From Primula veris (lineage: Eukaryota; Streptophyta; Magnoliopsida; Ericales; Primulaceae): a stretch of DNA of 64,000 nt. The notes under the pieces were generated by a model that did no database searches, was not told where the DNA came from, and saw nothing but the letters and a program-made list of their open reading frames with translations. A program made the position numbers and the translations under genes. Location: assembly GCA_963682055.1 (NCBI GenBank), contig OY821742.1, positions 7,153,816 to 7,217,815 on the forward strand, in the 5' to 3' direction. Shown here piece by piece: positions 18,822 to 61,977 of this stretch; within the stretch, counting starts at the first letter, position 1, and each line of letters opens with the position of its first letter.

Positions 18822-21800
18822 ATGGGAACTACTAATACTAAAAAAGAAGAAATGCAACAACCTATGCTAGCCCACCACGGCGAGTCGTCGACTCATGACC
18901 TGGAAATAATATTGTGCGACACGAGCAGACCGGTGATGGAGCGTTACAAACGTGCAACATGGATAGAGATGAAACTGTTGATGCACCTAGCTGGTCCCGC
19001 GGTGGTCGTTTACATGATAAATTATTGTATGTCGATGTCCACGCAAATATTTTCGGGTCATCTTGGGAACCTTGAATTAGCCGCAGCCTCACTTGGTAAC
19101 AACGGGATACAGCTTTTCGCTTACGGCCTCATGGTATGACGGATTCATGGTAGTTTAGAATAATTTAATATGTCTCTATTTATTTCAATTTCATTAGGTA
19201 AATAGTGATGGTCCTATAAGACTAATGATTCAAATATTTAAATAGTGTTATTATGATTGATCTAAGTTAAACTCTAAAACATGAAAAAATATAACCAATA
19301 TATATATAGTACCCATGTGTAATTTTCAGACGGTCAATTTTTTTATTTTATTTTTGAAATGCTGGAAATCACTAATGAAGAAAGATGACCATTGACAAAC
19401 CACAGTTATTATATATAGATCATATACTAATTCTTCTCGCTTAGTAGTAAGTGTCTGTGTTGAAATGAATGTTCACTTGTTTTGGTGATTAACTTATAAG
19501 TTATAGTTAAAAGTATTTGTATTTCTTGTCTTAAATGTTTGATTCTCTGATCTATAAAATATTTAACTTAATTGAGGCATAATATAAATTCTTGGCAACT
19601 TTTAATTTTTAAATGTAATTTTTATGTTAACTTGCATTAGGATGGTGAAATATTAAGGAGATCACAATTGTTGTATGATTTTTAATGTGCTAAATTTTGA
19701 AAGAACGAAATCCTAGCCACTTCAGTATACTAAACTGTAAAATATGAAGACCAAATTGGTGCTAAGAAATTTATCTTTATCTTTTCCTTTTAATCGTTAT
19801 GCATTTCATTTCGCTCAAAAAGTAGTTCTCTTTTTATTCATCTTTTATCAGTACTCAATTTTGGAATATTGCAAGTATTAACAATCCCTATTAAATTTTC
19901 ATCTAGCTGGCAGGACCCACATTATCGTTTATTATTCGTTAAATTTTGACTTATCTTGCATTAGTTATTGTTGTAGCACAGGGAATCTTAGCCGATTTGG
20001 ATCTAATATAAGCTTTTTATATTTGTAATTTTGTAACCATGTCAATTGTTTCATATATGCCATAACTTCGCAATATTTATAAGTTATAATTTTCTTATTA
20101 ACAAACACCGTGAAAGTTCACCCTTCACATCATTATTAGTCAATACAAGTCGTCTTCGTTCATGGTTCACTTAGACTGAACTATTGTTTTTACTTAAAAT
20201 ATGGCCGCAAATGAATCGATTCGAGTCGAGTCGAGCCGAGTTTAACTGTACTCAAGTTCGGCTTGTTTAATAAACGAGCTTTAAAATTTTGCTCAAACGA
20301 GCTGTTCACGAGTCTGTTCATAGCCTTTTCTCAACACGTTTTATGACAAATTTAATATCGTTTTGCTTAAAAAAATATTTTTTACTTTGCTAAAATAAAT
20401 GTTAAGATAAGCAATAATAAATTTAGTTATTGTGATTTTAGTTTTAATTAGATTTAGTTTTAAAAATAAATTTATTACATAAATTAAAGAGTATTTATCG
20501 ACCATCAATATTATATTAGATAACTTTTACATATATAAGCAGGAATATATATGAAAAATGTATAGCCGAACATGTTCACGAAGCTTATTCTATTATGTTC
20601 AAGCTCGTCTAATTAGTAAATGAACAAGCTCGACCCGAGTTTTTAACGAAACGAACACGAACAGGTTCATAAACGGTTTGGTTTATTAGCGGCCCTAACT
20701 TCAAACGAAAAAGACCAAGTGATAGAAAATGAAATAAAAATTGACCAACTTGTGCTTATTGCTTACCTGGCAGTATGAGGGATGGAGGTAGGTGGAGGAT
20801 GGCACGAGGGGCCCTCCATATTTTAAAAACAACAACTTTTTACGGTACAAAATTTAATTTATAATTTTATATTATGAAAATAACAATTTAGTCCTCCCAT
20901 TTGCCATATTTGGTGCCCAAGTAACTGTGATTTAATACAAGTTGATCATTTTTAAAAAAAAATTATTCTAGTTACTAAACTGTAAAAGGGCAAGTAGGAA
21001 CTAATATGTTTGTCATATATTACATACAATTAATTATATTCGACCCCGCTGTAATTTTCTAATGCCTCTGTAACATTAATTAAGTTGCAAAGCCTTAGAA
21101 CAATATTGTACTTATGTTATGCCCTATCATATGATATAGTTTTCCAAATACTTGGTAGTTGGTAATACAATGGAAATTCCAATTTTGATACTGAGTAATA
21201 TCTTCCCTCCAACTTAAGAAAATAGAAAAATCACATAATTTACAATCAATGGATTCAATGTTTCATTTTTTAGATGAGAGATTTCCACATTTAAATTGTG
21301 TTAGATTTTTCATAGAGGTTGACGATAGGCAAAAACTTCCGCTGAATTACAACTTTCATCATATTATGCTCTCGAGAAGAGCAACTTTTCTCAAAATCTC
21401 ACTCAAGGGGTGGAATCTCATTCTAACTTAGGATTCTTATGGTTCCGGAGGATCCGAAAATCAGTAACATGGATTTTCCCCCATTTTTCTGCCTAAGAAA
21501 CCATATATTAAGTTACTCAAGACTTTTCGGTCTTATTTACAAAGAAAAATCATAAGCAAGATCAAACGTATACAATAAATCCTTAATACAAACTTAGTAG
21601 TCATTTGTCAAGGCGTAAATGTTGCTCACTGCACATATAGTGCTAGACTGTTAGTGTATGCTTAAATCTAACATCTGTGAACTGTGTATAACCTCTATTG
21701 GCTTTTGTTACCGGGAACTAAATCAAAATTTGATTTTCTTTTTACGTTAATTAATAGCTAGGCATGGGAAGCGCAGTCGAAACTTTATGTGGCCAAGCAT

Positions 21801-24800
21801 ATGGTGCACACAAGTATGACATGTTGGGTGTGTATATGCAAAGGTCTTCGATCCTCTTATCAGCAACTGGACTCTTACTTTGTCTAATCTATATATTTTG
21901 TGAGCCCATCCTCATATTTCTAGGCGAATCAGCCGGAATCGCCTCTGCAACTTCCCTTTTTGTATACGGGCTAATCCCCCAAATATTTGCATATGCATTG
22001 AATTTTCCTATACAAAAATTCCTCCAGGCCCAGAGCATCGTCATGCCAAGTGCATATATATCCGCAGCTACATTGGGCCTACACATACTATTATCATGGA
22101 TTGCAGCATATAAGATTGGGCTTGGTCTTTTGGGCGCATCGCTAGTGTTGAGTTTATCTTGGTGGATCATTGTGGGGGCTCAATTTGTGTATATAGTGAA
22201 AAGTGAAAAATGCAAGTATACATGGGTCGGTTTCAGCTTAGAGGCTTTTACGGGCTTGCCTGAGTTTTTTAAGCTCTCGGCAGCATCTGCTGTCATGTTG
22301 TGTCTGGAGACATGGTATTTTCAGATACTCGTTTTGTTGGCTGGGATGCTCGAGAATCCTGAAGTGGCGCTTGATTCTCTTTCTATATGGTAAGCACACA
22401 TTCAGATAGAATTATGGAAACAGTTAGCGGAGAATAGTTTTGTTTCTAATTTAATACTAAAATATAGCAAATCGAAGAATATACATAACTGAAAAACAGG
22501 TGGACCAGAGCCACGTTTTTACTTCAACTCGTCGCGTTTTTGAGCTCACCTATAGCCCAGAAGAGGCACCAAAGGTATAACGCTCTTTTCTTTTCGTTGA
22601 CTGTTGATTTAAATCCTTACGCCTTTTATTCCGCATATTTCTTCTCTTTATGATAACTTATTATGTTTTCTAAATTAGGTAGAACTAATTCATCTCATAA
22701 TTTTTCTCAAGGAAGTTATACTTCCAATTCCAATAAAAATTCTGCCAATATAAGGCAAGAAGAATGTCAATATAATGATATTCCTGAAATGGCTAACTTT
22801 GAAGAACAGTTAGCAAATTGGCACCTTCCAAAGGTGAAGCCTTCTGGCATATATTCTATTGGTATGCTTGATTTTAAAATGGCTATGACCATTAAAACTA
22901 TTGAACAAACTATCCCTGTTAATCGGGATATGGAGACTATTCAGTTACTTCATAAAGAAGAACTACGCAAGTATTTTGATAAATACAAGTATGTCCATCT
23001 CGGTATGGTACAAGTAGCTGTGAAACCCCTTACAGCTCAAGGATTAAATACTTCAGTCTTTATTGCTTTACGCGACTGTCGCCACCTAGAATTTAAAGAT
23101 TCTTTATTAGATCCAAACGAGTTTATGTAACGGTCCAGTCTATTTTAACTGTTTTCCAAATTTCTCTGTTTCTTTAACAGATAAAAATATTTTAGATGTT
23201 CTAACTTTGAATATTAAAACCCATGGTTATAAACTCAAAGAAGGTACTGAACCTTTAAATATCACTTATAGAGTTCATTATAAAGCTATGACTACTCTTA
23301 GTCCTAGAGCTAAAATATTTGACACAAAAGGAAAAACTGTTTTAATAGAAACAAACTTATTGAAATCAGATGTCCAGACTCCACAGACTATTAAATGGGA
23401 TGATATTGAACCTCTCACAGAATGGAATTTATTGTCAGCAAGCCCAGCTGAACCCGTTGAGAATAAAAATATTGAAGAAATTATTCAAACCAAAGAAGGT
23501 CATGTTTTCGTCAAATTTGATAAAGGAAAACGTTTAGCTGCTAGAAGCTCCTTTTCAGATTATGAAAGTTCTTTTAAACAGAGTCAATCTGCTCGGTTTT
23601 ATACTCCAAACCCTTCTTTAGCATCTTTTAAAACTTCTAATTTAGTTTTTGATGGTGTTAACACCCAACAAAGTATTCCTCGTGCTATTTATCACGAAGA
23701 GAAAAATGAACCAGAAACTTTATCTGAGTTTGACAATATTTCTACTATTAATATGTTATCTATTCCTTTTTCTTATGATAGGCAAACTTGTGTTCAAGAC
23801 ATGAACCAAGAAAAATATACTTCTTTTAAGAACTGGTTTTTCTCTACTTATACCAGAGAAGAACAACAAATTTATAAAACCTTATTTTATAAACATATTG
23901 ATCATATCCAACAATTAGTTTCTTTTCCTATTTGGTTTATTAACCAAGCTACTATCGAGCAAAGTCCTTTTTTAAATGTATTAAAAACTTTTCAAAAAAA
24001 TTGGACTACAGCAAAAGGGGAAACTATTTCTGCTATTCATCCCCCTTGTGAGCATTTAAAAATTCGTGCTGGAGAAGCTGTGTCGCTTTTTCTAAAGATG
24101 AAAAACAGCTTAATTTTACTAATTTAACTCTCCAAACTATTTGTTCACAACTAGGTCGTATTGAAGACCAGGGAACTATTATTGTTCATAAAGAAGCACC
24201 AGTTGTTGCTAGTTCGTCTAGTTTTTATGTTCCACAAACGGTTATTGAACCTACTTTATTAAAACCCAGTATTGATATTACTGTTCCTGAGAATAATAAT
24301 AATAATGATATTATCACGATACTGACGCAGCAATTAGAAAACCTAAATATAAAAGGTAAGAATATAGCAACCTTATCAGAGGATATAGAAAATATAAATA
24401 TTTTTGAAAAACAACTTTTGGATATGGATACTAAGCCTGAACCAATTGAACCGGCTAGTATTAATCAAAATGTTTTTGGGAAATCAACTGCTTATGGACG
24501 GAAATCCGTTCCAACTGCACCTGTCAAACATTATTATACGCGACCCAGTCCTCAAGATCTTCTTTATGAAGAAGAAAATATTAATAATTTTTCTTGTTTT
24601 AGTGCTCGCACCATCTATGAATGGAATATTGATGGTATGACAGAATACCAAATTATGATTGTGTTACATAGAATGACTATGTATTCGACCGTATGTCTTA
24701 GTGCTAATAACACCGACTATCAAATTGCTGAATTTATGGTAGCTGGTTTTGCTGGTCAACTACGTGGTTGGTGGGATAACATTTTATCCCCTGATCAACA

Positions 24801-27800
24801 ACGGTCTATATTAACAGCCACAAAAATAGTTAGGAACCATATAAAGACTGAACAAGGTATAGATACTTATACAGATACAGTCTTACCCAATGCAGTTTAT
24901 ACCCTTCTCACTGCCATCGTACAAGCCTTTATTGGTTCTAATCCTATTTCTATAGAAAGAAATAAAGATCTATTAATCAATCTGAAATGCCCCACGCTAA
25001 CACAGTTTAGATGGTATAAGGATGTTTTTCTAACCAAAATTATGATGCGACCTGATGCAAATGCTGATTTCTGGAAAGAAAAATTTATTGCAGGTCTTCC
25101 TAATCTATTTGCCCAAAAGGTTAAAGATAGGATTTTACGCCAAACTGGGAATACTACAATCCCTTACCATGAATTTACATATGGTCAACTTATTAGTGAG
25201 TGTGTCGGTGAAGGTTTATCCCTTTGTAATGACATAAAATTGAAAGCCCAATTAAAAAGTCAAAATTTGACAGGAAGGAAAGAAATAGGTACTTTCTGTG
25301 ATCAATTCGGATTTGATCTTCAACTCCCTCACAATTCTCATCAGAAATCTTATTCTAAGAAAAAACATTTTTCTAATTCTAAGAGATTTTCTCGAAAAAC
25401 CTCTAAACCAAGACATAATACCCAGCATATTGGTACATCTCGACCTAAGCCTTATAGGTCTAAACCGAAACCTAACCCAAACAATCCTATTATTTGTCAG
25501 AAATGTGGCAAAACAGGTCATTATGCCAACAGATGTTGGACAAAGAAGAGATTAAATGAGATCTCTGATGAAAGACTTAGGAAACAACTTATAGCTGTTA
25601 TGTTATATTCTTCTGACGAAGAAGCAGCAACAAATGATATAGAAGTCTATACTAGTAGTGAGTCTGAACATTATAGTTCATCATCCTCCTCTTCAGATTG
25701 TGAATGTAAGGATAATACTTATAAAGCTATGCTTGATATGAATGGTTTAAGTTTGAATGTTCTTACTTCCCATGAAAAATCTATATTAGATCTTATTAAT
25801 GAAATTGATAATGCTGAAATAAAAAAGAAATTGATTAAACATTATCTAGATGTCCTTACAAAAGACAAGAAAAAGGACACTCCTTATATTCCTCAGGAAG
25901 CTTATTCTCTAAAACATGTTTTTCAAGGACTTCCATCTCCTTCCAAACAATTTTGTAGTGAAGATATGTATAAAGAGGTAAAAGCTCTTAAAGAAGACAG
26001 TAATAGCAAAGCTATTTCTATCTCTGATTTATATAGTGAAATTCACATATTAAAAAATGAAGTTAAATTCCTACGAAATATCATTCAAACAGAAAAGGAT
26101 ATTCCTTTTATAGAAGAAAAAGAAAAGGACACTTTTTTAAATATAATTGATAAAATTACTTATCAGAAGTGGCATTCTTATGTCACAATTGTTATTAATA
26201 AAGAATTTACTTTTTCTGGTCCTGCACTTATTGATAGTGGGGCTGATTTAAATTGCATATGTGAAGGGTTAATTCCTACCCACTATTATGACAAAACTAC
26301 ACAATCTTTAAATACTGCTGATGGATCTCGTATGAAGATTCATTATAAATTGTCTAATGCATATATTTGTAATTCTGACATGTGTTTTCAAACAACATTT
26401 GTTATGGTTAAGGTCTTACTCAACAAATCATTTTGGGTACTCCTTTTTTAAACTTAATAGAACCTTTTATGGTTACCTCAAAGGGTATTATTTTTGAAAC
26501 CAATGGTCAAGAAATTATATTTGACTTTATTACAAAGCCACAAACTAGAGAAGTTGATATGATCAAAGAGACTTTGGTTTTTAAAGAAAAGCAAATCAAT
26601 TTCTTACAAAAGGATTTAAAAGTTATGAATATTTCTCGACAAATTATTTCACAAAAAGATAAAATTAGTATTATCACTAATCTCATCAAAAGAGAGATTT
26701 GCAGTGATCTCCCTACTGCTTTTTGGGAAAGAAAGAAACATATTGTCACACTTCCCTATGTGGAAGATTTTCAAGACAGTAGTATTACTACAGTAGCTAG
26801 GCCTGCCCAAATGGGTCCAGATTTAATTGAATATTGTAAAGAGGAGATAAACTCTTTATTAAATAAAAAACTTATTCGTAAATCCTATTCCCCTTGGAGC
26901 TGCACTGATTTTTATGTTTATAAAAATGCTGAAATTGAAAGAGGTGCTCCTCGATTAGTTATTAACTACAAACCTTTAAACAAGGTTCTTAAATGGATTA
27001 GGTATCCTATTCCCAATAAAAAAGATTTACTTACCAGAATTCAATCTGCTAATGTCTTTTCAAAATTTGATCTAAAATCTAGTTATTGGCAAATACAGAT
27101 AGCTGAGCAAGATAAATATAAAACTGCTTTTGTTGTTCCTATGGGACATTATGAATGGAATGTAATGTCATTCGGTTTAAAAAATGATCCTTCTGAGTTT
27201 CAAAACATTATGAATGATATTTTTTTATCCTTATTCTTCCTTTAGCATTGTTTATATTGATGATATTCTCATCTTTTCTCAAGATATAGATCAACATTTT
27301 AAGCACATAAATATTTTTATAAAATTAATAAAAAATGTTGGATTAGTAGTATCTGCTACTAAAATGTCTTTATTTCAGACTCATATTCGTTTTTTGGGAC
27401 AAGAAATTGACCAGGGCAAAATTATCCCTATTGATCGCGCTATACAATTTGCGGATAAATTTCCTGATATTTTACATGAAAAAACCCAATTACAAAGGTT
27501 TTTGGGAAGTCTCAATTATATTGCTGACTATTATAAAAATCTTGCTATAGACAGCTCTCCTTTATATGAGAGATTAAAGAAAGATCCTCCTTTATGGACT
27601 GATATTCATACGAATGCAGTTAGACTTATTAAGTCTAAAGTAAAAAGTTTACCCTGTTTAGCATTAATTTCTCCTAAAAGTTTTAAAATTGTAGAAACTG
27701 ATGCATCAGATATTGGTTATGGAGGAATATTAAAACAAAAATTTCCTTCCAAAAATAAAGAGATATTATCTCGTTATACTTCTGGCAAGTGGAATTCTGC

Positions 27801-30800
27801 CCAAATCAATTTACTTCTGGTTAGTGCGCTTATAGTGCGCTTTGGTGCTTTTCTTTTTTGTTTTGTTTTTTAGCATAAGAAAAAGCAAAAGCGCACAGCC
27901 CGCGCACTAAGGCTAAAAAACAAAACAAAAAAGAAAAGCACCAAAGCGCACTATAAGCGCACTAACTTAAAGTAAAAGAAGAAGCCAAAACATGGGCGGC
28001 TCCTCATGAATACTGGCCAACATATTGACCCACATATAAAGAGAGATTCTCAGCTTTTCCATAAATCACGCCGGGTGCTCATTGGGCCCCATCGAACACG
28101 TGAAAAAGTGGTAGTGATTGAAGGAATCATTCTTTATAAAAAATTACAAATAAAAATTATAATAAAAATTACAAACTGACATATTAAGCCTTAGCTTTGC
28201 CTTTGTCTTTTGTAGCAATATTCTTCTCATCCATACTGAGAGGGTTGCGCAAGGTGGCGAGGTTATCTAAATAGTCCTCCATATCTTCATTATCTGTTTC
28301 TGCATCGTCTTCCATGAGAGATTCAGATTTTGAAGAATTAGCTTGAAAACATTCAGAAAAATCAACATCTAACTGTTGTTGAATAAATTCCAAATATTTT
28401 TCCTTGAGTTCAATATTGGATACAGAAGGAAATAAATCTTTAAAGTCAGACATAGATGGGATACCCACAGTCTTTTTCTCGGGAGCATATTCCCGTTCCA
28501 TTTTCTTAAAGGCTTCAATGGCTTCTTGTATTTTTATAAGGACTAGTTTGCAATCAAACTTCGCCCACCATTTATAATAAGATTGCCTTGTTAAGGCCAT
28601 AATACCAATATCAGTTCTTTTTATGGCATAAGACCATTGCCATATCCAAGGTAAGCTGAATGTGATAAGAAAACGAAGTAAATGACTTCCTGTAACCACT
28701 TTGGCCCCCGTAATTTTTGGATTACTGGAACAATGAAGGGTATATTTATCAGCAATATCAGGGGGGAAAATATCCTCATTAGGCCCAATAAAAGAAAACC
28801 AATCATAAAACCAATATGGTAGGTCTTGACCCAATAATGTTGGTTCTAAGCGGATAAACCAAGTATGTTTTTCGGCCCGATTTTGATAATAAAAGGCATG
28901 ACGCCAAGCAGACATATAATCCCAATAATTATAGTGTTGGTGGGAAAATTTAAGCTGCATAGGCTTATTGGGGTTTAATCCCCATTCAGTAATAGAGATG
29001 ACCTTTCTAATGAAGGCTTTGCTAAAGGAAATATCCCTAGTATTTTTATGTTGATTCATATGATTGATCATCACTGAACCAGTTTCAATAAGAATAGACT
29101 GAAAATATTTCAAGTTCTTATTATCAATAAGAGGAAAATGTTCCTCAGTCTCAAAATATCTCTTAGCCAAGGTATTAGGTGAGGTAAATAACCTCTCATC
29201 TCCTTTATTCAGAAGAATAATAATTCCTTCGTTCACCTTTTGCTTGCCAGGAATAACTGGTTCCTTGAGTGCTTCTAAGAAGCTTTCTTGTGTTTTACCA
29301 GAGGATAAATAATCCTCATAATTAGCAGGCTCTCTTTTAGAGTGAGCAGCCGATCCCCTAGAAGAGCCGGAGTCGGACTGGGAAGAGGAATATCTCTTCT
29401 TGTCGAATTCATGGCGAGCATGCGAAGAGGATAATCCTCGACGCCCACGGCTAGATTGGCTCATGAGGAGCTAATAGGGCCAAGAATATATTCCCTGGTG
29501 AGAAAATCAGGAAGAGAATTATGTTCTCCTTTAATATATTCAATATCGAAATCAAAAATAGACAAAATAGATTGCCATCGAGCAAATATTTGCTTGGATG
29601 CCAGATTTTTGACATCTTTTTCTAAAACTTCCTTAGCTGCTTTACAATCAATTCGCAGGAGGAATTTTTGATTTAATAAATCATCTTGGAATTTAGTAAT
29701 ACAATTGACTATAGAAAGAATTTCTTTCTTTATTGTGGAATAATTGATTTGGGCAGAATTCCACTTGCCAGAAGTATAACGAGATAATATCTCTTTATTT
29801 TTGGAAGGAAATTTTTGTTTTAATATTCCTCCATAACCAATATCTGATGCATCAGTTTCTACAATTTTAAAACTTTTAGGAGAAATTAATGCTAAACAGG
29901 GTAAACTTTTTACTTTAGACTTAATAAGTCTAACTGCATTCGTATGAATATCAGTCCATAAAGGAGGATCTTTCTTTAATCTCTCATATAAAGGAGAGCT
30001 GTCTATAGCAAGATTTTTATAATAGTCAGCAATATAATTGAGACTTCCCAAAAACCTTTGTAATTGGGTTTTTTCATGTAAAATATCAGGAAATTTATCC
30101 GCAAATTGTATAGCGCGATCAATAGGGATAATTTTGCCCTGGTCAATTTCTTGTCCCAAAAAACGAATATGAGTCTGAAATAAAGACATTTTAGTAGCAG
30201 ATACTACTAATCCAACATTTTTTATTAATTTTATAAAAATATTTATGTGCTTAAAATGTTGATCTATATCTTGAGAAAAGATGAGAATATCATCAATATA
30301 AACAATGCTAAAGGAAGAATAAGGATAAAAAAATATCATTCATAATGTTTTGAAACTCAGAAGGATCATTTTTTAAACCGAATGACATTACATTCCATTC
30401 ATAATGTCCCATAGGAACAACAAAAGCAGTTTTATATTTATCTTGCTCAGCTATCTGTATTTGCCAATAACTAGATTTTAGATCAAATTTTGAAAAGACA
30501 TTAGCAGATTGAATTCTGGTAAGTAAATCTTTTTTATTGGGAATAGGATACCTAATCCATTTAAGAACCTTGTTTAAAGGTTTGTAGTTAATAACTAATC
30601 GAGGAGCACCTCTTTCAATTTCAGCATTTTTATAAACATAAAAATCAGTGCAGCTCCAAGGGGAATAGGATTTACGAATAAGTTTTTTATTTAATAAAGA
30701 GTTTATCTCCTCTTTACAATATTCAATTAAATCTGGACCCATTTGGGCAGGCCTAGCTACTGTAGTAATACTACTGTCTTGAAAATCTTCCACATAGGGA

Positions 30801-33800
30801 AGTGTGACAATATGTTTCTTTCTTTCCCAAAAAGCAGTAGGGAGATCACTGCAAATCTCTCTTTTGATGAGATTAGTGATAATACTAATTTTATCTTTTT
30901 GTGAAATAATTTGTCGAGAAATATTCATAACTTTTAAATCCTTTTGTAAGAAATTGATTTGCTTTTCTTTAAAAACCAAAGTCTCTTTGATCATATCAAC
31001 TTCTCTAGTTTGTGGCTTTGTAATAAAGTCAAATATAATTTCTTGACCATTGGTTTCAAAAATAATACCCTTTGAGGTAACCATAAAAGGTTCTATTAAG
31101 TTTAAAAAAGGAGTACCCAAAATGATTTGTTGAGTAAGACCTTAACCATAACAAATGTTGTTTGAAAACACATGTCAGAATTACAAATATATGCATTAGA
31201 CAATTTATAATGAATCTTCATACGAGATCCATCAGCAGTATTTAAAGATTGTGTAGTTTTGTCATAATAGTGGGTAGGAATTAACCCTTCACATATGCAA
31301 TTTAAATCAGCCCCACTATCAATAAGTGCAGGACCAGAAAAAGTAAATTCTTTATTAATAACAATTGTGACATAAGAATGCCACTTCTGATAAGTAATTT
31401 TATCAATTATATTTAAAAAAGTGTCCTTTTCTTTTTCTTCTATAAAAGGAATATCCTTTTCTGTTTGAATGATATTTCGTAGGAATTTAACTTCATTTTT
31501 TAATATGTGAATTTCACTATATAAATCAGAGATAGAAATAGCTTTGCTATTACTGTCTTCTTTAAGAGCTTTTACCTCTTTATACATATCTTCACTACAA
31601 AATTGTTTGGAAGGAGATGGAAGTCCTTGAAAAACATGTTTTAGAGAATAAGCTTCCTGAGGAATATAAGGAGTGTCCTTTTTCTTGTCTTTTGTAAGGA
31701 CATCTAGATAATGTTTAATCAATTTCTTTTTTATTTCAGCATTATCAATTTCATTAATAAGATCTAATATAGATTTTTCATGGGAAGTAAGAACATTCAA
31801 ACTTAAACCATTCATATCAAGCATAGCTTTATAAGTATTATCCTTACATTCACAATCTGAAGAGGAGGATGATGAACTATAATGTTCAGACTCACTACTA
31901 GTATAGACTTCTATATCATTTGTTGCTGCTTCTTCGTCAGAAGAATATAACATAACAGCTATAAGTTGTTTCCTAAGTCTTTCATCAGAGATCTCATTTA
32001 ATCTCTTCTTTGTCCAACATCTGTTGGCATAATGACCTGTTTTGCCACATTTCTGACAAATAATAGGATTGTTTGGGTTAGGTTTCGGTTTAGACCTATA
32101 AGGCTTAGGTCGAGATGTACCAATATGCTGGGTATTATGTCTTGGTTTAGAGGTTTTTCGAGAAAATCTCTTAGAATTAGAAAAATGTTTTTTCTTAGAA
32201 TAAGATTTCTGATGAGAATTGTGAGGGAGTTGAAGATCAAATCCGAATTGATCACAGAAAGTACCTATTTCTTTCCTTCCTGTCAAATTTTGACTTTTTA
32301 ATTGGGCTTTCAATTTTATGTCATTACAAAGGGATAAACCTTCACCGACACACTCACTAATAAGTTGACCATATGTAAATTCATGGTAAGGGATTGTAGT
32401 ATTCCCAGTTTGGCGTAAAATCCTATCTTTAACCTTTTGGGCAAATAGATTAGGAAGACCTGCAATAAATTTTTCTTTCCAGAAATCAGCATTTGCATCA
32501 GGTCGCATCATAATTTTGGTTAGAAAAACATCCTTATACCATCTAAACTGTGTTAGCGTGGGGCATTTCAGATTGATTAATAGATCTTTATTTCTTTCTA
32601 TAGAAATAGGATTAGAACCAATAAAGGCTTGTACGATGGCAGTGAGAAGGGTATAAACTGCATTGGGTAAGACTGTATCTGTATAAGTATCTATACCTTG
32701 TTCAGTCTTTATATGGTTCCTAACTATTTTTGTGGCTGTTAATATAGACCGTTGTTGATCAGGGGATAAAATGTTATCCCACCAACCACGTAGTTGACCA
32801 GCAAAACCAGCTACCATAAATTCAGCAATTTGATAGTCGGTGTTATTAGCACTAAGACATACGGTCGAATACATAGTCATTCTATGTAACACAATCATAA
32901 TTTGGTATTCTGTCATACCATCAATATTCCATTCATAGATGGTGCGAGCACTAAAACAAGAAAAATTATTAATATTTTCTTCTTCATAAAGAAGATCTTG
33001 AGGACTGGGTCGCGTATAATAATGTTTGACAGGTGCAGTTGGAACGGATTTCCGTCCATAAGCAGTTGATTTCCCAAAAACATTTTGATTAATACTAGCC
33101 GGTTCAATTGGTTCAGGCTTAGTATCCATATCCAAAAGTTGTTTTTCAAAAATATTTATATTTTCTATATCCTCTGATAAGGTTGCTATATTCTTACCTT
33201 TTATATTTAGGTTTTCTAATTGCTGCGTCAGTATCGTGATAATATCATTATTATTATTATTCTCAGGAACAGTAATATCAATACTGGGTTTTAATAAAGT
33301 AGGTTCAATAACCGTTTGTGGAACATAAAAACTAGACGAACTAGCAACAACTGGTGCTTCTTTATGAACAATAATAGTTCCCTGGTCTTCAATACGACCT
33401 AGTTGTGAACAAATAGTTTGGAGAGTTAAATTAGTAAAATTAAGCTGTTTTTCATCTTTAGAAAAAGCGACACAGCTTCTCCAGCACGAATTTTTAAATG
33501 CTCACAAGGGGGATGAATAGCAGAAATAGTTTCCCCTTTTGCTGTAGTCCAATTTTTTTGAAAAGTTTTTAATACATTTAAAAAAGGACTTTGCTCGATA
33601 GTAGCTTGGTTAATAAACCAAATAGGAAAAGAAACTAATTGTTGGATATGATCAATATGTTTATAAAATAAGGTTTTATAAATTTGTTGTTCTTCTCTGG
33701 TATAAGTAGAGAAAAACCAGTTCTTAAAAGAAGTATATTTTTCTTGGTTCATGTCTTGAACACAAGTTTGCCTATCATAAGAAAAAGGAATAGATAACAT

Positions 33801-36246
33801 ATTAATAGTAGAAATATTGTCAAACTCAGATAAAGTTTCTGGTTCATTTTTCTCTTCGTGATAAATAGCACGAGGAATACTTTGTTGGGTGTTAACACCA
33901 TCAAAAACTAAATTAGAAGTTTTAAAAGATGCTAAAGAAGGGTTTGGAGTATAAAACCGAGCAGATTGACTCTGTTTAAAAGAACTTTCATAATCTGAAA
34001 AGGAGCTTCTAGCAGCTAAACGTTTTCCTTTATCAAATTTGACGAAAACATGACCTTCTTTGGTTTGAATAATTTCTTCAATATTTTTATTCTCAACGGG
34101 TTCAGCTGGGCTTGCTGACAATAAATTCCATTCTGTGAGAGGTTCAATATCATCCCATTTAATAGTCTGTGGAGTCTGGACATCTGATTTCAATAAGTTT
34201 GTTTCTATTAAAACAGTTTTTCCTTTTGTGTCAAATATTTTAGCTCTAGGACTAAGAGTAGTCATAGCTTTATAATGAACTCTATAAGTGATATTTAAAG
34301 GTTCAGTACCTTCTTTGAGTTTATAACCATGGGTTTTAATATTCAAAGTTAGAACATCTAAAATATTTTTATCTGTTAAAGAAACAGAGAAATTTGGAAA
34401 ACAGTTAAAATAGACTGGACCGTTACATAAACTCGTTTGGATCTAATAAAGAATCTTTAAATTCTAGGTGGCGACAGTCGCGTAAAGCAATAAAGACTGA
34501 AGTATTTAATCCTTGAGCTGTAAGGGGTTTCACAGCTACTTGTACCATACCGAGATGGACATACTTGTATTTATCAAAATACTTGCGTAGTTCTTCTTTA
34601 TGAAGTAACTGAATAGTCTCCATATCCCGATTAACAGGGATAGTTTGTTCAATAGTTTTAATGGTCATAGCCATTTTAAAATCAAGCATACCAATAGAAT
34701 ATATGCCAGAAGGCTTCACCTTTGGAAGGTGCCAATTTGCTAACTGTTCTTCAAAGTTAGCCATTTCAGGAATATCATTATATTGACATTCTTCTTGCCT
34801 TATATTGGCAGAATTTTTATTGGAATTGGAAGTATAACTTCCTTGAGAAAAATTATGAGATGAATTAGTTCTACCTAATTTAGAAAACATAATAAGTTAT
34901 CATAAAGAGAAGAAATATGCGGAATAAAAGGCGTAAGGATTTAAATCAACAGTCAACGAAAAGAAAAGAGCGTTATACCTTTGGTGCCTCTTCTGGGCTA
35001 TAGGTGAGCTCAAAAACGCGACGAGTTGAAGTAAAAACGTGGCTCTGATACCAAACGTATTCTTCCTCTATATAAATTTAACTTATTATTTAACTTAAGA
35101 AAAAAACAGTCTTGTACAGGTACACTAACTATCTTGTATATTTTTTTGTAGCATGTCAATATCGGGATGGGTCTTTATGATATCCATCGGGTTCAATGCA
35201 GCAGCAAGGTCATTCTTTTATTTACTTATCTTTACTTTTCTTATATCTATTAGCATCTTTTCAGTTTAGATGTGATTATTAACTAAAGTCAAAGTTTATG
35301 TAATGAATTGCAGTGTGAGAGTAAGCAATGAGCTCGGTGCTGGACACCCAAAGTCAGCTTCATTTTCTGTTTCATTGGTCACTTCCGTCTCATTTCTCAT
35401 TTCCATCGTTTCCGCAATTGTGGTACTAGCTTTGCGCGACAACATAAGCTACGTATTCACTGATGGTGAAATTGTAGCGAATGCAGTCTCTGATCTCTGT
35501 CCACTTCTAGCTCTCACGCTCCTTCTCAACGGTTTCCAACCCGTATTGTCCGGTGTGGCTGTTGGTTGTGGATGGCAATCGTTTGTTGCATACGTGAATG
35601 TGTGTTGTTATTATATCGTTGGAGTACCGCTTGGTGTGTTGCTCGGATTCTACTTTAATTATGGAGCTAAGGTAAATTTTGACCTCAAATTGGTAGCTAT
35701 CAAGTTTTGATGTCACAGGTAATTAATATTTGTATTTATTTTTGATGCACCTGTAGGGAATATGGATAGGCATGTTAAGCGGCACGGTGATGCAAACTCT
35801 CATTCTGATGTGGGTCACTTTTCGAGCAGACTGGAACAAAGAGGTAATATAGCGGTCGTTTAATTCTCACACTTCGTCTTCCCCTTCAATTGCTACCTCC
35901 TTCGAAATTAGCCATAGGTGATTCTATTAGGGTCATGGTACTAAATACTAAAAACATTAAACTAATATGTGAATGATTCCAGCTACAACCTTGTTTTGCA
36001 ATTTCCTCATTATCGAAGTCTTTGTAACCTTCTAAACTCTTCTGAGTCAACTTTGATAGTAAAAGACGGTCATATTCATTATCGATTATTTTAGAAAACA
36101 AAGAAAGTAATCCACTTTCATAACGATCCTAATAAAATATCGTCATTTGTTAACTTATAACAATAATCTCACTTGATTTGCAGGTAGAAGAAGCTTTGAA
36201 AAGAATGGATAAGTGGGACGAGAAAAAGAAACCACTAGAGGACTAA
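18822..36246 (+). CDS. MATE/DETOXIFICATION efflux transporter, copy 1
   Basis: Cation-coupled multidrug and toxic compound extrusion carrier, probably on the tonoplast or plasma membrane, resembling Arabidopsis DTX40. Exons are 18822-19133, 21758-22389, 35152-35208, 35314-35671, 35757-35843 and 36184-36246. All have GT..AG borders and consistent phases, giving 502 residues with no stop. The 12 membrane segments expected of the family are visible. Motifs include [37 protein letters not shown] (Glu at residue 112), [16 protein letters not shown] and [11 protein letters not shown]. The length is normal. Intron 1 is 2.6 kb. Intron 2 is 12.8 kb because a 12.5-kb pararetroviral insertion occupies it. 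The coding sequence is intact, but correct splicing over this intron is not assured. It is tandem to copy 2 at 56719. Confidence 0.88.
20200..20697. mobile_element. hAT-like element in MATE intron 1
   Basis: The termini tatggccgc and gcggcccta are flanked by acttaaaa (20192-20199) and acttcaaa (20698-20705), 7 of 8 identical. The interior has the tcgagccgag/gttcgttta motifs common in plant MITEs. In MATE copy 2 only the right part survives (about 58755-58890), so it inserted before the duplication and was later partly deleted there. Confidence 0.7.
22663..24127 (+). pseudogene. Pararetroviral movement-protein region, left copy
   Basis: Begins with the ATG 157 bp after the primer site. The first frame (22663-23130) and second frame (23207-24127) are different frames of one original polyprotein. 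The first is ended by a shift just before 23130 and the second by another near 24090. The content fits the 30K-type cell-to-cell movement protein that opens florendovirus ORF1. This rests mainly on position and partial resemblance. Confidence 0.65.
24128..26451 (+). pseudogene. Pararetroviral coat/zinc-knuckle and aspartic protease region, left copy
   Basis: The main open frame is 24418-26451. At residue ~360 is a CCHC knuckle, [14 protein letters not shown], diagnostic of caulimovirid coat protein, preceded by a basic [21 protein letters not shown] tract and followed by a Ser/Glu-rich acidic stretch. Near residue ~604 is the protease motif LIDSGAD. The frame ends at 26451 by a shift near a T6 run, and the reverse transcriptase continues in another frame. 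Confidence 0.8.
26433..27811 (+). pseudogene. Pararetroviral reverse transcriptase/RNase H, left copy, truncated
   Basis: 26433-27245 carries RT blocks ([31 protein letters not shown]). A shift at a T7 run near 27222 puts the catalytic YIDD and the RNase H start ([11 protein letters not shown]) in the frame from 27214. Viral sequence stops at 27811, so about 70 C-terminal residues of RNase H are missing. The ORF continues to 27873 in junction sequence only. Confidence 0.85.
27820..27966. repeat. 55-bp perfect hairpin at the centre of the viral insertion
   Basis: 27820-27874 and 27912-27966 are exact reverse complements (55/55), separated by a 37-bp loop. The stems contain two copies of agtgcgctt. 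The hairpin lies 8 bp from the end of the left arm and runs into viral 3' non-coding DNA on the right. It is either a foldback MITE or the product of snap-back synthesis when the two genomes joined. Confidence 0.9.
27967..28183 (-). other. Viral 3' intergenic region
   Basis: Non-coding sequence beyond the ORF2 stop of the right-hand viral copy. It may hold the viral promoter and polyadenylation region (TATA-like minus-strand motifs at about 28031-28038 and 28131-28138), but neither can be fixed from sequence alone. Confidence 0.4.
28184..29464 (-). CDS. Pararetroviral ORF2 protein, intact, function unknown
   Basis: A 426-residue open frame whose ATG overlaps the stop of ORF1 in an ATGA quartet (29461-29464), as in a compact viral genome. 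The N-terminus is Ser/Arg-rich (residues 1-45). A long middle part with many aromatic residues, such as WFIRLEP and [11 protein letters not shown], follows. The C-terminus is acidic and ends in a Lys-rich tail. I recognise no enzymatic motif. Florendoviruses carry an ORF2 of unknown role in this position. It is present only in the right-hand viral copy because the left copy is cut before it. Unlike ORF1, it has no frame break. Confidence 0.75.
   Translation of the reverse strand: MSQSSRGRRGLSSSHARHEFDKKRYSSSQSDSGSSRGSAAHSKREPANYEDYLSSGKTQESFLEALKEPVIPGKQKVNEGIIILLNKGDERLFTSPNTLAKRYFETEEHFPLIDNKNLKYFQSILIETGSVMINHMNQHKNTRDISFSKAFIRKVISITEWGLNPNKPMQLKFSHQHYNYWDYMSAWRHAFYYQNRAEKHTWFIRLEPTLLGQDLPYWFYDWFSFIGPNEDIFPPDIADKYTLHCSSNPKITGAKVVTGSHLLRFLITFSLPWIWQWSYAIKRTDIGIMALTRQSYYKWWAKFDCKLVLIKIQEAIEAFKKMEREYAPEKKTVGIPSMSDFKDLFPSVSNIELKEKYLEFIQQQLDVDFSECFQANSSKSESLMEDDAETDNEDMEDYLDNLATLRNPLSMDEKNIATKDKGKAKA
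29461..31120 (-). pseudogene. Pararetroviral reverse transcriptase/RNase H, right copy
   Basis: Mirror of the left copy, but RNase H is complete to its stop at 29461 (292-residue frame from 30339). The RT frame 31120-30308 and the YIDD/RNase H frame overlap out of register through the same shift as in the left arm. RNase H contains [11 protein letters not shown] and a C-terminal [16 protein letters not shown] stretch. Confidence 0.85.
31102..33425 (-). pseudogene. Pararetroviral coat/zinc-knuckle and protease region, right copy
   Basis: Main frame 33135-31102, 677 residues, identical in translation to the left-arm frame, with the CCHC knuckle and the LIDSGAD protease site. It is separated by shifts from the movement-protein frame upstream and the RT frame downstream. 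Confidence 0.8.
33426..34890 (-). pseudogene. Pararetroviral movement-protein region, right copy
   Basis: Frames 34890-34423 and 34346-33426 are identical in translation to the left arm and broken at the same points. Confidence 0.65.
35041..35053 (-). promoter_or_regulatory. Viral tRNA-Met primer-binding site
   Basis: The minus strand reads TGGTATCAGAGCC, the complement of the plant initiator tRNA-Met 3' end used by caulimovirids and many LTR elements. At the left end only the cagagcc part remains, fused to host gtggac. Confidence 0.85.
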
Positions 36247-36556: not shown

Positions 36557-37490
36557 GGCGGTGGCCACGACCGGATTGGGGCGGATTTGTTTCAATTCTA
36601 ATTCAATCCGTAAAATAAATGACGGAACGGATTGAAACGGATTGATGAAATTTAAATCTCCAACCAACCAAATCCAACCCGTAACAATTAAAACCCCAAC
36701 CCAACTTAATCCAACCAGCAAAATAAATTATGGGTTGGGACGGATTGGGTTTAGATTGATCCTTAAATTTTTATTTTGGTCCTTTATTTTTCATAGTTTG
36801 CATAATCAACCAAAATTTTAAAATAAATTGAATATTTCAAACAGAAATATAAATTAAACTCAATCAAAGTACGTTTAAAATATTCACGAACAAGTAATAA
36901 AACTAAAATATAACAATAATTAAATGTTGGTATTTTAAAATGGGGGAGAATATATGTACACCATGAAAAACACCAAAATAGACACTTTTTTTCAAAAACG
37001 CTCCAAATCAAGATTTGATTAATGCAAATCTTTACGGTTTCATGACGGGAACACAAATATGCGTCTTGTTTTTTTCTGAGATGTATAATGATATGTTTTG
37101 AATTTTTAAATTTTAACATAATTTCGAAAACATGTCATTATACATCTCGAAAAAAAAAACAAAACGCATATTTGTGTTCCCGTCGTGAAACCGTGGAGAT
37201 TTGCATTAACCAAATCTTGATTTGGAGCGTTGTTACGAAAAAGTGTCCAAGATATCTAAGTCGATGTTCATATACCTCTCCCTTTTAAAATACACACAAT
37301 ATATATATATTACGGATTGTGACGGATTAACCCGCGGTTTGTGAAACTCAAACCTAACCCAACCCACAAAATATATAACGGATTGGAGCGGAACGGATTG
37401 ATTTTTTTTGAACATTCAAACCATCTCAACTCGCCCCAATCCATACGAATTGGGTTACGAGACGGATTTACGAATTTTTTATCCATCGCA
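36557..37490. mobile_element. hAT-like insertion rich in cggattgg, downstream of MATE copy 1
   Basis: It is flanked by atagcttat at 36548-36556 and 37490-37498. The equivalent site in unit 2 (about 62266-62275) is uninterrupted. The ends carry cggattggggcg-type repeats in inverted orientation. A palindromic MITE is nested inside it (36942-37282). Confidence 0.6.
36942..37282. mobile_element. Palindromic Mutator-type MITE, copy 2, 341 bp
   Basis: It is flanked by the 9-bp duplication ttttaaaat (36933-36941 and 37283-37291). It starts gggggagaatatatg and ends catatacctctccc. It is nearly palindromic over its length, with the same internal blocks as the copy at 6590-6945. Terminal ggggaga plus a 9-bp duplication supports a Mutator-type origin. 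Confidence 0.8.
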
Positions 37491-39008: not shown

Positions 39009-39246
39009 TCGGGGTGACCCATGATTAAGTCGAGTAACCCTTGGGCCTGGGGCACAGACTGAGCCTGGGGCAAAAAAAAATAAAAAAATTAGGGCCGTGG
39101 TTCAGCCCAATTATATAAAGCCTAGATTATTATAAACTCGATTTTAGCCCAAATTGACAATTAAATTAATTCAAGATTTGCAAAAATAAAACATCCATAT
39201 ATATATATATATATACGTATATATCAATTAAAATGAAACTGATTTT
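39009..39246. mobile_element. Left part of a split ~316-bp element (rest at 56406-56483)
   Basis: tatataat occurs at 39001-39008 and 56484-56491, flanking sequence absent from MATE unit 1. The 5-bp atttt duplication of the Tat retrotransposon lies within this element, so the retrotransposon is nested in it. An 8-bp duplication fits hAT, but the termini (cggggtg/ctcccg) are weak. Confidence 0.45.
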
Positions 39247-39834: not shown

Positions 39835-39836
39835 AG

Positions 39837-39855
39837 TGCTCCCTGACTTCCTCGG
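39837..39855 (-). promoter_or_regulatory. Probable polypurine tract
   Basis: On the minus strand the bases just before the 3' LTR read gaggaagtcagggagca, the expected place of the plus-strand primer. It is only moderately purine-pure. Confidence 0.5.
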
Positions 39856-40022
39856 CGTGGTTTCCATGTCGAGGGAGTCATGCTCGGTCTATCGAGGATA
39901 TTTCTTCGGTCTCGTTGTTCCCAATGCTTCGTTGAGAAACGTAGTGGATTTATGACGGTTCCTTGGGGGGGGGGGCCCATTTAAAGTTTCATATACTAAT
40001 ATCTTTCTTCGAGAAAAACTCC

Positions 40023-56718: not shown

Positions 56719-59700
56719 ATGGGAACTACTAATACTAAAAAAGAAGAAATGCAACAACCTATGCTAGCCCACCACGGCGAGTCGTCGACTCATGACCTGG
56801 AAATAATATTGTGCGACACGAGCAGACCGGTGATGGAGCGTTACAAACGTGCAACATGGATAGAGATGAAGCTGTTAATACACCTAGCTGGTCCGGCGGT
56901 GGTCGTTTACATGATAAATTATGGTATGTCGTTGTCCACGCAAATATTTTCGGGTCATCTTGGGAACCTTGAATTAGCCGCAGCCTCACTTGGTAACAAC
57001 GGGATACAGCTTTTCGCTTACGGCCTCATGGTAGGGCGAATTCATGGTAGTTTAGAATAATTTAGTGTCTCTATTTATTTCAATTTCATTAGGTAAATAG
57101 TAATGGTCCTATAAGACTAATGATTCAAATATTTAGATAGTGTTATTATGATTGATCTATGTTACACTAAAACATGAAAAAATATAACCAATATATATAT
57201 ATATTAGCCATTTGTTGTTGGTTTATGTATACGAAATAAAAATTAATAAATAACAAAAGACTAAAAAGAATAAACAAACAAACAGTGTGATATTTATTAA
57301 TTCAAAATTGAAATTGAAATTACTGATTACAAAACTGTACGGACTGAATCGTAATTAAAAAAAACATTAGTCAGATTATTATTAATTAATAATCTGACGG
57401 ACTGAATTGTAATAAATAGAAACTATCGGACCGGAAAGTATAAACTTAACAGCCGGACTGTTCTGATTGAAAATTAACTTATATGACTGAAATGAAACTA
57501 TTCTAATTAAATAATTGAAATTACAGAACATAAACAATATTTTAAGTAAATTACAGAAAGGTAAAATAGAATTGAAATATTACAGCTAATTACAGCAAAT
57601 TAAAATACTGAAATAAAATTGCGTAATTGAAAACACAGAATATAAATTGCAGAATTGAAAAGACGAGGCGACTGTTAAACAGTCTGATGCCCTTAACCAA
57701 TAGTCGCCCAACCACCTTAATTTTCTGGTTGCTTTGACGCTTCGATCCCAAGGTACAACGTACCGGATGACTCGTCGAAAACTGGCGACGAGTCAAGGTC
57801 GAACTTTTGCTGGATAGTTCTCTCTCTTTCTAGAATGGCTACTATTTATAGACTGAGCTGAAATCTTTACAAGCTTATTAGAATTTTTGGGGACTGTTTT
57901 GTAATTATCCAAAACTTTTAGACTTTCTTGGAACATTCCCACATTCCCCCGAGCCCAAGGCCAAAGCCCAAGACTGAGCGCACACGTGGTGATGCTTTTG
58001 CCTACACACCTAAGATGCTACATATTATTACCATGTATATAAACTATTCAAAATATTTTTTACTTTTTGATGTGGGATAAACATTTGGTGGTCTTTTCAT
58101 CTCTTTATTTTTTCACTCTCTTCCCAAATTCCAGATTTCGTCTCTCCATAGTCTAATTTAGTAGTCAATTTTCATTCATACTCATTCACTGAATAGGTCA
58201 TGCGATATACCGTTTCGAAACTCGTCACACGAGCTACTCAAACAATTTGAGTAGGGAGTCTAAACTTTAAATTATTCACATGAAATTTGACCAAAAACAT
58301 GTTTTTTCCAACATGTGTAATTTTCAGACTGTCAATTTTTTTATTTTATTTTTGAAATGCTGGAAATCACCGATGAAGAGAGATGACCATTGACAAACCA
58401 AAGTTATTATACTAATTCTTCTCGCTTAGTAGTAAGTGTCTGTGTTGAAATGAATGTTCACTTGTTTTGGTGATTAACTTGCAAGTTATAGTTAAAAGTA
58501 TTTGTATTTCTTGTCTTAAATGTTTGATACTCTGGTCTATAAAATATTTAACTTAATTGAGGCATAATATAAATTCTTGGCAACTTTTAATTTTTAAATG
58601 TAATTTTTATGTTAACTTGCATTAGGATGGTGAAATATTAAGGAGATCACAATTGTTGTATGATTTTTAATGTGCTAAATTTTGAAAGAACGAAATCCTA
58701 CTTTAGTATACTAAACTGTAAAATATGAAGAACAAATTGGTGTAAAGAAATTTATCAAACTCGGCTCACGAGCGTTATTATTATTATGTTCAAACTCGGC
58801 TCATTGGTAAATGAACAAGTTCGAGCCGAGTTTTTAACGAGGCGAACACGAACATGTTTCATAAACGATTCGGTTTATTAGTACCCCCAACTTGAAATGA
58901 CAAAAACCATGTGATAGAAAATAAAATAAAAATTGACCAGCTCGTGCTTATTGCTTACCCAAGAGTACGAGGGATGAAGCTAGATGGAGGATGGCAGTAA
59001 TTATAACCCCTTCATATTTTAAAAAAACAACTTTTTATAATATACATTTTTATTTATATTATGAAAATAACGATTTAGTGATGCCCATATTGTCATATAT
59101 TTGGTGCCCAAGTAACTGTGATTTAATCCAAGATGATATATATATTTTTTAAATTAATTCTAGTTACTAAACTGTAAAAGGGCAAGTAGGAACTAATATG
59201 TTTGTCATATATTACATACAATTAATTATATTCGACCTCGTTATAACTTTCTAATGCCTCTGTAACATTAAGTTGCTTAGCCTTAGAACAATATTGTACT
59301 TATGTTATGCCCTATCATATGATATAGTTTTCCAAATACTTGGTGGTTGGTAATACAATGGAAATTCCAATTTTGATACCGAGTAATATCTTCCTTCCAA
59401 CGTAATGAAATAGTAAAATCACATAATTTACAATCAATGGATTCAATGTTTCATTTTTTAGATGAGAAATTTGCACATTTAAATTGTGTTAGATTTTTCA
59501 TAGAGGTTGACGATAGACAAAAACTTCCGCTGAACACAGCTTACAACTTTCATCATATTATGCTCTCGAGAAGAGCAACTTTTCTCAAAATCTCACTCAA
59601 GGGGTATTGAGCTGGAAACTTATTCTAACTTAGGATTCTTATGGTTCCGGAGGATCCGAAAACCAGTAACACAGATTTTTACCCATTTTTCTACCTAAGA

Positions 59701-61977
59701 AACCATATATTAAGTTAGTCAAGACTTTTCGGTCTTACTTACAAAGAAAATTCACAAGCAAGATCAAAGGTTTACAATAAATCCTTAATACAAACTTAGT
59801 AGTCATTTGTCAAGGCGTAAATGTTGCTCACTGCACATATAGTGCTAGACTGTTAGTGTATGCTTAAGTCTAACATCGGTGAACTGTGTATAACCTCTAT
59901 TGGCTTTTGTTGCCGGGAACTAAATCAAAATTTGATTTTCTTTTTTACGTTAATTAACAGCTAGGCATGGGAAGCGCACTCCAAACTTTATGTGGCCAAG
60001 CATATGGTGCACACAAATATGAAATGTTGGGTGTGTATATGCAAAGGTCTTCGATCCTCTTATCAGCAACTGGACTCTTACTTTGTCTAATCTATATATT
60101 TTGCGAGCCCATCCTCATATTTCTAGGCGAATCAGCCGAAATCGCCTCTGCAACTTCCCTTTTTGTATACGGGCTAATCCCCCAAATATTTGCATATGCA
60201 TTGAATTTTCCTATACAAAAATTCCTCCAGGCCCAGAGCATCGTCATGCCAAGTGCATATATATCCGCCGCTACATTGGGCCTACACATACTATTATCAT
60301 GGATTGCAGCATATAAGATTGGGCTTGGTCTTTTGGGCGCATCCCTAGTGTTGAGTTTATCTTGGTGGATCATTGTGGGGGCTCAATTTGTGTATATAGT
60401 GAAAAGTGAAAAGTGCAAGTATACGTGGGTCGGTTTCACCTTAGAGGCTTTTACGGGCTTGCCTGAGTTTTTGAAGCTCTCAGTAGCATCTGCTGTCATG
60501 TTGTGTCTGGAGACATGGTATTTTCAGATACTCGTTTTGTTGGCTGGGATGCTCGAGAATCCTGAGGTGGCGCTTGATTCTCTTTCTATATGGTAAGCAC
60601 ACGCATTCAGATAGAATTATAGAAACATCTATGGGAGAATAGTTTGTTTCTAATTTAATACGAAAATAGAGCAAACCGAAGAATATACATAACTGAAAAA
60701 CAGGTGGACGGAAATAATGAAAAATATAATAGATTCATTCCGGAAATAGGTTACTATTGAATTTACAAGAAAAAAACAGTTTTGTACAGGTACACTAACT
60801 ATCTTGTATATTTTTTTTATTTTTTTTTGTAGCATGTCAGTATCGGGATTGTTCCTCATGATTTCTGCCGGGTTCAGTGCAGCAGCAAGGTCATTCTATT
60901 ATTAAATTATCTTTAATTTTATTATATATGTGCGGCTAAGAGCCTAAGACATCTATTAGCAAGATCTTTTCAGTTTGATTATTAACTAAAGTCAATGTTT
61001 ATCGAATGAATTGCAGTGTGAGAGTAAGCAATGAGCTCGGTGCTGGACACCCAAAGTCAGCTTCATTTTCCGTCTCGGTGGTCACTTCCATTTCATTTCT
61101 CATTTCCGTCGTTTCCGCAATTGTGCTACTAGTTTTGCGCGACGACATAAGCTACGTATTCACTGATGGTGAAATTGTAGCGAATGCAGTCTCTGATCTA
61201 TGTCCACTTCTAGCTCTCACGCTCCTTCTCAACGGTTTCTATCCTGTATTTTCCGGTGTGGCTCTCGGTTGTGGATGGCAATCGTTTGTTGCATACGTGA
61301 ATGTGTGTTGTTATTATATCGTTGGAGTACCGCTTGGTATATTGCTCGGATTTTACTTTAATTATGGAGCTAAGGTAAATTTATTTTAACCTCAAATTGG
61401 TAGGCGGTAGCTATCAAGTTTTGATGTCACTAGTAATTTTTATTTGTTTTGATTTTCCATGCGTGTGTAGGGAATATGGATAGGTATGTTAGGTGGCACG
61501 GTGATGCAAACTCTCATTCTGATGTGGGTCACTTTTCGAGCAGACTGGAACAAAGAGGTAATATAGCGATCGTTTAATTCTCACACTTCGTCTTCCCCTT
61601 CAATTGCTACCTCCTTCGAAATTAGCCATAGGTGATTCTATTAGGGTCATGGCACTAAATACTAAAAACATAAAACCAATATGTGAATGATTCCAGCTAC
61701 AACCTTGTTTTGCAATTTCCTCATTATCGAAGTCTTTGTAACCTTCTAAACTCTTCTGAGTCGACTTTGATAGTAATATTCTTACAAAAGACGGTCATAT
61801 TCATTATCGATTATTTTAGAAAACAAATAAAGTAACCCACTTTCATAACGATCCTAATAAAATATCGTCATTTGTTAACTTATAACAATAATCTCACTTG
61901 ATTTTCAGGTAGAAGCAGCTTTGATAAGAATGGATAAGTGGGACGAGAAAAAGAAACCACTTCTTGTAGGGGACTAA
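56719..61977 (+). CDS. MATE/DETOXIFICATION efflux transporter, copy 2
   Basis: Tandem paralogue of the gene at 18822, with the same six-exon plan: 56719-57030, 59961-60592, 60833-60889, 61017-61374, 61471-61557 and 61909-61977 (504 residues, no stop). Exon lengths match copy 1 except for a 6-nt longer last exon. Differences include MSLS for MSMS in the first membrane segment and ALQTLCGQ for AVETLCGQ, which replaces Glu112 by Gln in a conserved block. The exon 1 donor is atg|gtaggg rather than gtatga. Intron 1 carries a solo LTR. Its distal promoter is separated by the 17-kb retrotransposon. The role is presumably transport of an organic cation or specialised metabolite; substrate unknown. 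Confidence 0.88.
57216..58313. mobile_element. Probable solo LTR in MATE copy 2 intron 1 (1098 bp)
   Basis: It begins TGTTGG and ends CCAACA (perfect 6-bp inverted ends). It is flanked by tttgt (57211-57215) and tgtgt (58314-58318), 4 of 5 identical. Copy 1 has uninterrupted catgtgtaa at this point. It has no coding capacity. Confidence 0.6.

Follow-up and report, generated by a model that had tools for sequence, protein, structure and literature searches.

Intron 2 of an open MATE gene (MATE A) was found to hold a perfect inverted repeat of pararetroviral DNA. The window (the whole 64,000-bp stretch that was analysed, C3:7153816–7217815) contains no N and belongs to an assembly of 436.5 Mb in 34 contigs; what stands out is that perfect arms, an open host gene and a paralogue (MATE B) with the empty site occur together in one window. 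We favor, at a probability of roughly 0.6, the reading that a florendovirus-like inverted composite was captured by end joining in MATE A intron 2 and tolerated there, and that read-through transcripts could fold and give rise to siRNAs acting mainly locally.

Inverted viral arms within MATE A intron 2

The features of the locus and of its tandem paralogue are as follows.

18822..19133, plus strand: MATE A exon 1, open frame, GT donor
21758..22389, plus strand: MATE A exon 2, Pfam MatE, open frame
22390..35151, plus strand: MATE A intron 2, 12,762 bp, or about 207 bp minus the insert (MATE B counterpart: 240 bp)
22506..27811, plus strand: left arm, a viral copy that begins at the primer-binding site and is cut off within RNase H
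27812..35060, minus strand: near-complete viral copy of about 7.25 kb (~7,249 bp), which includes the right arm and ends shortly past the leader stem-loop
27812..27976, minus strand: presumed stem-loop of the pregenomic-RNA leader; a short upstream ORF terminates at the base of the stem
28184..29464, minus strand: viral ORF2, 426 aa, 49.7 kDa, uninterrupted
29461..30339, minus strand: uninterrupted terminal part of viral ORF1, covering the RT end and RNase H
29742..35047, minus strand: right arm, the same viral stretch as the left arm
35048..35060, minus strand: outer end of the right viral copy, where the primer-binding site TGGTATCAGAGC straddles the arm edge
35061..35083 (approximate), no strand: filler or unaligned sequence separating the virus from the host intron, absent from the paralogue
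35152–35208, 35314–35671, 35757–35843 and 36184–36246, plus strand: MATE A exons 3–6, open frame
56719..61977, plus strand: MATE B, tandem paralogue with a 504-aa open frame and the empty site
60709..60751, plus strand: empty site within intron 2 of MATE B, a break in homology to the MATE A flanks

The repeat search of the window returned a single inverted pair, with arms of 5,306 bp each that are 100% complementary and lie 1,930 bp apart (loop 27812–29741), in agreement with the initial annotation, which had described 5,306-bp inverted arms about 1.9 kb apart. Its remark that the arms show no net indel was right but too weak, since they differ at zero bases; a script found the arm strings identical base for base, and the flanking base on either side of the match differs. 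A perfect inverted repeat of this length cannot be a product of chance. None of the 5,286 21-mers of the arm recurred elsewhere in the window once the insert was excluded.

Both arms lie within one MATE A intron whose splice sites are intact, as judged from position and splice signals. MATE A consists of six exons with a joined open frame of 502 aa and no lesion, and intron 2 is bounded by GT and AG, which supports the earlier placement of the arms inside intron 2 of an open MATE gene. Native intron 2 sequence around the insert amounts to 116 bp on the left and 69–91 bp on the right. Exon 2 resembles solved plant MATE transporters by sequence match, and the best 120 of 5,227 protein relatives were plant MATE proteins with 62–85% identity (mostly 73–85%), many of them named DETOXIFICATION 40. 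The open frame and a dN/dS of ~0.37 against MATE B suggest that the gene is probably still used. Flanked by intact splice sites, the insert would probably be removed together with the 12.8-kb intron and hence be tolerated.

Anatomy and classification of the viral copies

Read from 35060 on the minus strand, the near-complete copy comprises TGGTATCAGAGC, ORF1, ORF2, TATA-like motifs, a short ORF and, at the inner join, a very stable stem-loop. We take TGGTATCAGAGC to be a tRNA-Met primer site. The plus-strand copy starts six bases into this site and is truncated within RNase H; the outer ends of both copies are located at the primer site, and the copies are joined tail to tail. The locus had been described as two opposed viral genomes, of which the opposite orientation holds and the presence of two whole genomes does not, as the minus-strand copy is near-complete and the plus-strand copy ends in RNase H.

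Pfam matches to the ORF1 pieces appeared in the order MP, Caulimovir_coat_dom, zf-CCHC (under its cut-off), RVP, RVT_1 and RNase H, and this succession of movement, coat, zinc-knuckle, protease, RT and RNase H domains bears out the pararetroviral origin proposed for the arms. ORF1 contains four frame changes, every one of them in the arms; since open frames overlap at these positions, a nonsense codon is not required. In the loop, ORF2 and the end of ORF1 are both open, in different frames. ORF2 had no Pfam match, and 2,653 candidates yielded no named relative of it, only two unnamed proteins with 33–34% identity. ORF2 and these two proteins have in common a conserved core containing tryptophan.

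For the leader stem, folding of 171 nt gave about −106 kcal/mol, a value without a shuffled control. In a relative on C5 the leader stem is followed by about 140 bp and then the primer site, so that the near-complete copy seems to miss only the final stretch (roughly 100-odd bases) before the primer site. The palindrome at 27810–27976 was also considered as a MITE; this was rejected in favor of the leader stem-loop, given that its base coincides with the end of the short ORF and that parts of it match the C5 relative between ORF2 and the primer site. Rfam gave no match at gathering thresholds.

The RT relatives (120 listed of 830) were mostly unnamed, and the named ones were nearly all plant genome proteins. 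The virus appears florendovirus-like by gene plan and genome size: the ORF1 domain order, ORF2 size and frame, genome length, and primer site with leader stem-loop all correspond. In the account of Geering et al. 2014 (PMC4241990), the florendovirus plan has two ORFs, MP-CP-AP-RT-RH1 in ORF1 and a 45–58 kDa ORF2 product with no known relatives, in a genome of 7.2–8.5 kb, and the loci described there include intronic cases, compound insertions, and joins at which host sequence was gained or lost. The insert thus resembles endogenous florendoviruses in ORF plan, ORF2 size, genome length, intronic site, composite structure and base changes at the join, whereas its ORF1 frame changes and perfectly inverted arms set it apart from those in that account. 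A leader stem-loop preceded by the end of a short ORF is the caulimovirid shunt form outlined in PMC5902531. No long (TA)n repeat was seen at the insert joins, a further difference from the endogenous florendoviruses of PMC4241990.

Origin and age of the composite

Alignment of MATE B to MATE A revealed homology through base 22505, resuming at about 35083. A genome search with 22300–22520 matched MATE A and MATE B only, and the MATE B match stopped at query base 206, the join. From this empty site, the insert is younger than the A/B duplication, barring precise loss from MATE B; that MATE B never carried the insert is assumed, and precise loss would alter the order of events. The synonymous difference between the two genes was 7.7% (dN 0.029; 472 of 502 aligned residues identical), corresponding to about 6 My at an assumed 6.5e-9 substitutions/site/year. 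By region, divergence was 9.0% in part of intron 1, 2.7% around exon 1 and 2.4% in intron 5 (35844–36183 versus 61558–61908), and the low values around exon 1 and in intron 5 relative to intron 1 suggest gene conversion between the tandem genes in some stretches.

At the insertion join, comparison with MATE B revealed that host bases had been lost and ~20 unrelated bases gained, and no target-site duplication was seen at the insert joins in the MATE A/MATE B comparison; this is the pattern that end joining would leave. Near-complete and truncated viral DNA, tail to tail and with outer ends at the presumed tRNA-Met primer site, probably entered intron 2 of one of the two tandem MATE genes through end-joining repair. 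The bases at 35061–35083, whose pattern occurs once in the window, were also considered as further viral sequence, which was rejected since the C5 relative has different bases ahead of its primer site.

Related loci were sought with two probes. The RT/RNase H probe gave at least 41 genome matches (40 of 116 candidates scored), of which the two arms stood at 100%, four more at 94–98% and the others at 83–88%, and the ORF2 probe likewise gave at least 41 (40 of 109 candidates scored). Pooled, the 82 matches fell into at least 50 loci by 12-kb clustering, and at least eight loci, the MATE A insert included, held both orientations. Inspection within about 1.5 kb revealed both orientations in four of 28 loci, none of them among the eight from the probes; the total of at least 12 of 50 is a lower bound, as close inspection covered 28 loci. 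Mixed-orientation composites are a recurrent product in this genome, and this recurrence means that no host function or selection is needed to explain the inverted arrangement. The MATE A composite was probably not built for function, inverted composites having arisen repeatedly.

The longest pieces of other inverted pairs were 99.5% identical over 1,759 bp (C5), 99.1% over 2,232 bp (C4) and 98.3% over 2,092 bp (C7), and a pair on C8 had an arm identity of 97.8% over 179 bp. In a comparison confined to the C5, C4 and C7 arms, their own mates and the window ORF2, the mates were more alike than either was to the window copy (98% for C5, 85% for C4 and 77–81% for C7). Inverted viral composites thus recur in one genome with arm divergence graded from 0 to ~1.7% over the measured pieces, which could perhaps serve for dating, much like LTRs. 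For the MATE A arms, 0 differences in 5,306 bases gave a 95% upper bound of about 43,000 years at 6.5e-9 (9,000–81,000 years across the rates tried), on the assumption that the arms evolve apart. Their identity reflects either a very recent inverted duplication or upkeep by gene conversion.

The damage shared by the arms bears on this choice. All ORF1 frame changes are common to both arms; at the two of four sites compared with relatives, both outside the MP and CP parts, length differed from that of the arm in 27 of 27 readable copies at one and in 26 of 28 at the other. Frame changes present in both arms yet lacking in nearly all other copies tested indicate that the damage predates the duplication or spread from arm to arm. 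Five private substitutions in 877 sites are also common to both arms (three siblings have 3, 7 and 3), and together with the frame changes they are at odds with a simple capture of two viral genomes that were fresh and working. An older damaged insert, whose arms were recently made identical by late inverted duplication, templated repair or arm-to-arm conversion, would account for these shared changes, and we consider this possible, at odds clearly short of even. Additional frame-changing gaps in 24 of 28 related copies, which mark such damage as normal here, point the same way, as do the ORF2 gaps of the C4 mates (6 shared, 0 and 2 unique) and C7 mates (11 shared, 3 and 4 unique); however, the C5 mates share none and have one unique gap each, and the ORF2 gaps were counted against an ORF2 diverged by 15–20%, so that they may reflect lineage rather than damage. 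Moreover, both outer ends fall at the primer site, where a viral genome naturally ends; in a copied segment this would be a coincidence. The other pairs retain 0.5–1.7% arm difference, so that conversion is not general. The alternatives are therefore a recent origin from an already defective molecule, either captured twice or snapped back on itself, and an older insert with later duplication or homogenization; primer-site ends favor the former and shared private damage the latter.

An identity of exactly 100% over 5.3 kb could also have been inflated by consensus, and the shared frame changes, two of which adjoin runs of 6–7 A, could be uncorrected errors in unmappable repeats. That a fold-back read or consensus collapse produced the repeat is nevertheless improbable. 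The two host/virus joins are unlike, one being without six primer-site bases, and they flank one intron as the empty site predicts, which is impossible from a single copy or fold-back; three other pairs in the same assembly retain differences (98.3–99.5% identity), which argues against collapse. A single-read fold-back or collapse was therefore disfavored as the cause.

Transcription, hairpin formation and siRNA reach

Ahead of both arms, the host promoter appears to be the sole obvious one. The loop holds a presumed viral promoter that points left; its transcript would cover one arm only, before running antisense into MATE exon 2. Because both arms are spanned only by a transcript that enters from outside, running rightward from the MATE promoter, a read-through pre-mRNA or the excised intron could fold into ~5.3 kb of perfect dsRNA; if MATE read-through occurs, base pairing alone would yield the hairpin. 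The hairpin-capable layout noted earlier is supported on that condition, namely that MATE transcription crosses both arms. AATAAA motifs lie on the plus strand of the loop at 28149 and 28161, and read-through could stop there, ahead of the second arm.

These polyadenylation motifs favor a neutral passenger that is fully silenced, with little transcription or early termination and a hairpin that never forms, as does the CpG observed/expected ratio, which was 0.48 in the arm (22506–27811) and 0.58 in the loop, against 0.87–0.90 in three neighboring stretches, as in methylated DNA. On the other hand, MATE A is open and by its dN/dS probably in use, and the CpG depletion is possibly viral in origin; we put full silencing at not quite an even chance.

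Under the preferred reading of a tolerated composite, some DCL2/DCL3-type siRNAs would be expected, acting mainly on their own locus and a few close relatives; near relatives of the insert lie on C2, C5 and C8. Among 28 loci examined with a single 1.5-kb RT piece (26300–27811), its 22-mers were unchanged at 65%, 44% and 59% in three same-lineage loci (L005, L006 and L007) and at 2–6% in each of the 25 others, so perfect siRNA matches would be limited largely to this small lineage. A silencing role of the inverted repeat is plausible. A natural intron-hairpin RNAi gene, in which MATE transcription gives both mRNA and viral siRNAs and has been selected as heritable antiviral immunity, would have the layout of constructed intron hairpins, the lesion-free MATE A frame, and tomato and soybean precedents (PMC10377300) in its favor; we consider it unlikely, given that at least 12 of 50 loci are of mixed orientation without any need for selection and that unchanged 22-mers are concentrated in three loci. 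More doubtful still is the full form of this idea, in which MATE A yields transporter mRNA and heritable siRNAs against one florendovirus lineage, is recently fixed or still polymorphic, and has MATE B as its hairpin-free twin.

The long hairpin RNA of maize Mu killer silences relatives in trans, and "sirtrons" are intron-derived siRNAs; function was tested in both. They resemble the MATE A locus in having a long hairpin RNA or an intron as siRNA source, and differ from it in being non-viral. The review PMC10377300 indicates that endogenous caulimovirid inverted repeats have previously been reported to yield hairpin siRNAs. As summarized there, tomato TSAs are rearranged caulimovirid inverted repeats that give 22-nt siRNAs via DCL2 (Valli et al.), tomato ECV inverted repeats yield 22-nt siRNAs able to degrade matching transcripts (section 3.5), and soybean long inverted repeats, of caulimovirid or TE origin, feed DCL2 and are alike in small-RNA output (Jia et al. 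2020). The MATE A repeat shares with the tomato TSAs endogenous caulimovirid DNA in a rearranged, hairpin-capable inverted repeat and with the soybean repeats its long inverted form, but it is intronic to a host gene with an open frame, unlike the TSAs as reviewed, and its siRNAs are predicted, whereas small RNAs are demonstrated in soybean. According to Geering et al. (PMC4241990), gene overlap concerns about 9% of the florendovirus loci in grapevine and is intronic in nearly every case; florendoviruses are reported there as small-RNA sources. Titles and abstract openings of the open-licence PMC literature searched held no intronic ECV hairpin, which is weak evidence of absence. For the question of heritable RNA immunity from endogenous pararetroviruses in plants, the locus offers a built-in control, with one tandem gene carrying a perfect intronic viral hairpin and the other an empty site.

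Elsewhere in the window, ORFs at 9550–10989 resemble fragments of a gene of the ABCE (RNase L inhibitor) type; the one ORF piece scanned had no Pfam match. Palindromic, MITE-like sequences at 36981–37247 and 6662–6902 were 87% and 80% self-complementary, respectively, and 82–83% alike. Between MATE A and MATE B lies a ~17-kb LTR retrotransposon (39245–56401) with LTRs of ~591 bp that are 1.5% apart and with ATTTT on both sides, which looks like a target-site duplication. Its minus strand carries domains of gag, RT, RNase H and integrase as well as a weak match to a protease, several extra plus-strand ORFs lie at 40.6–49 kb, and two tandem arrays are located within it (49371–49624, 37-bp unit, 6.9 copies; 42576–42765, 22-bp unit, 8.6 copies).
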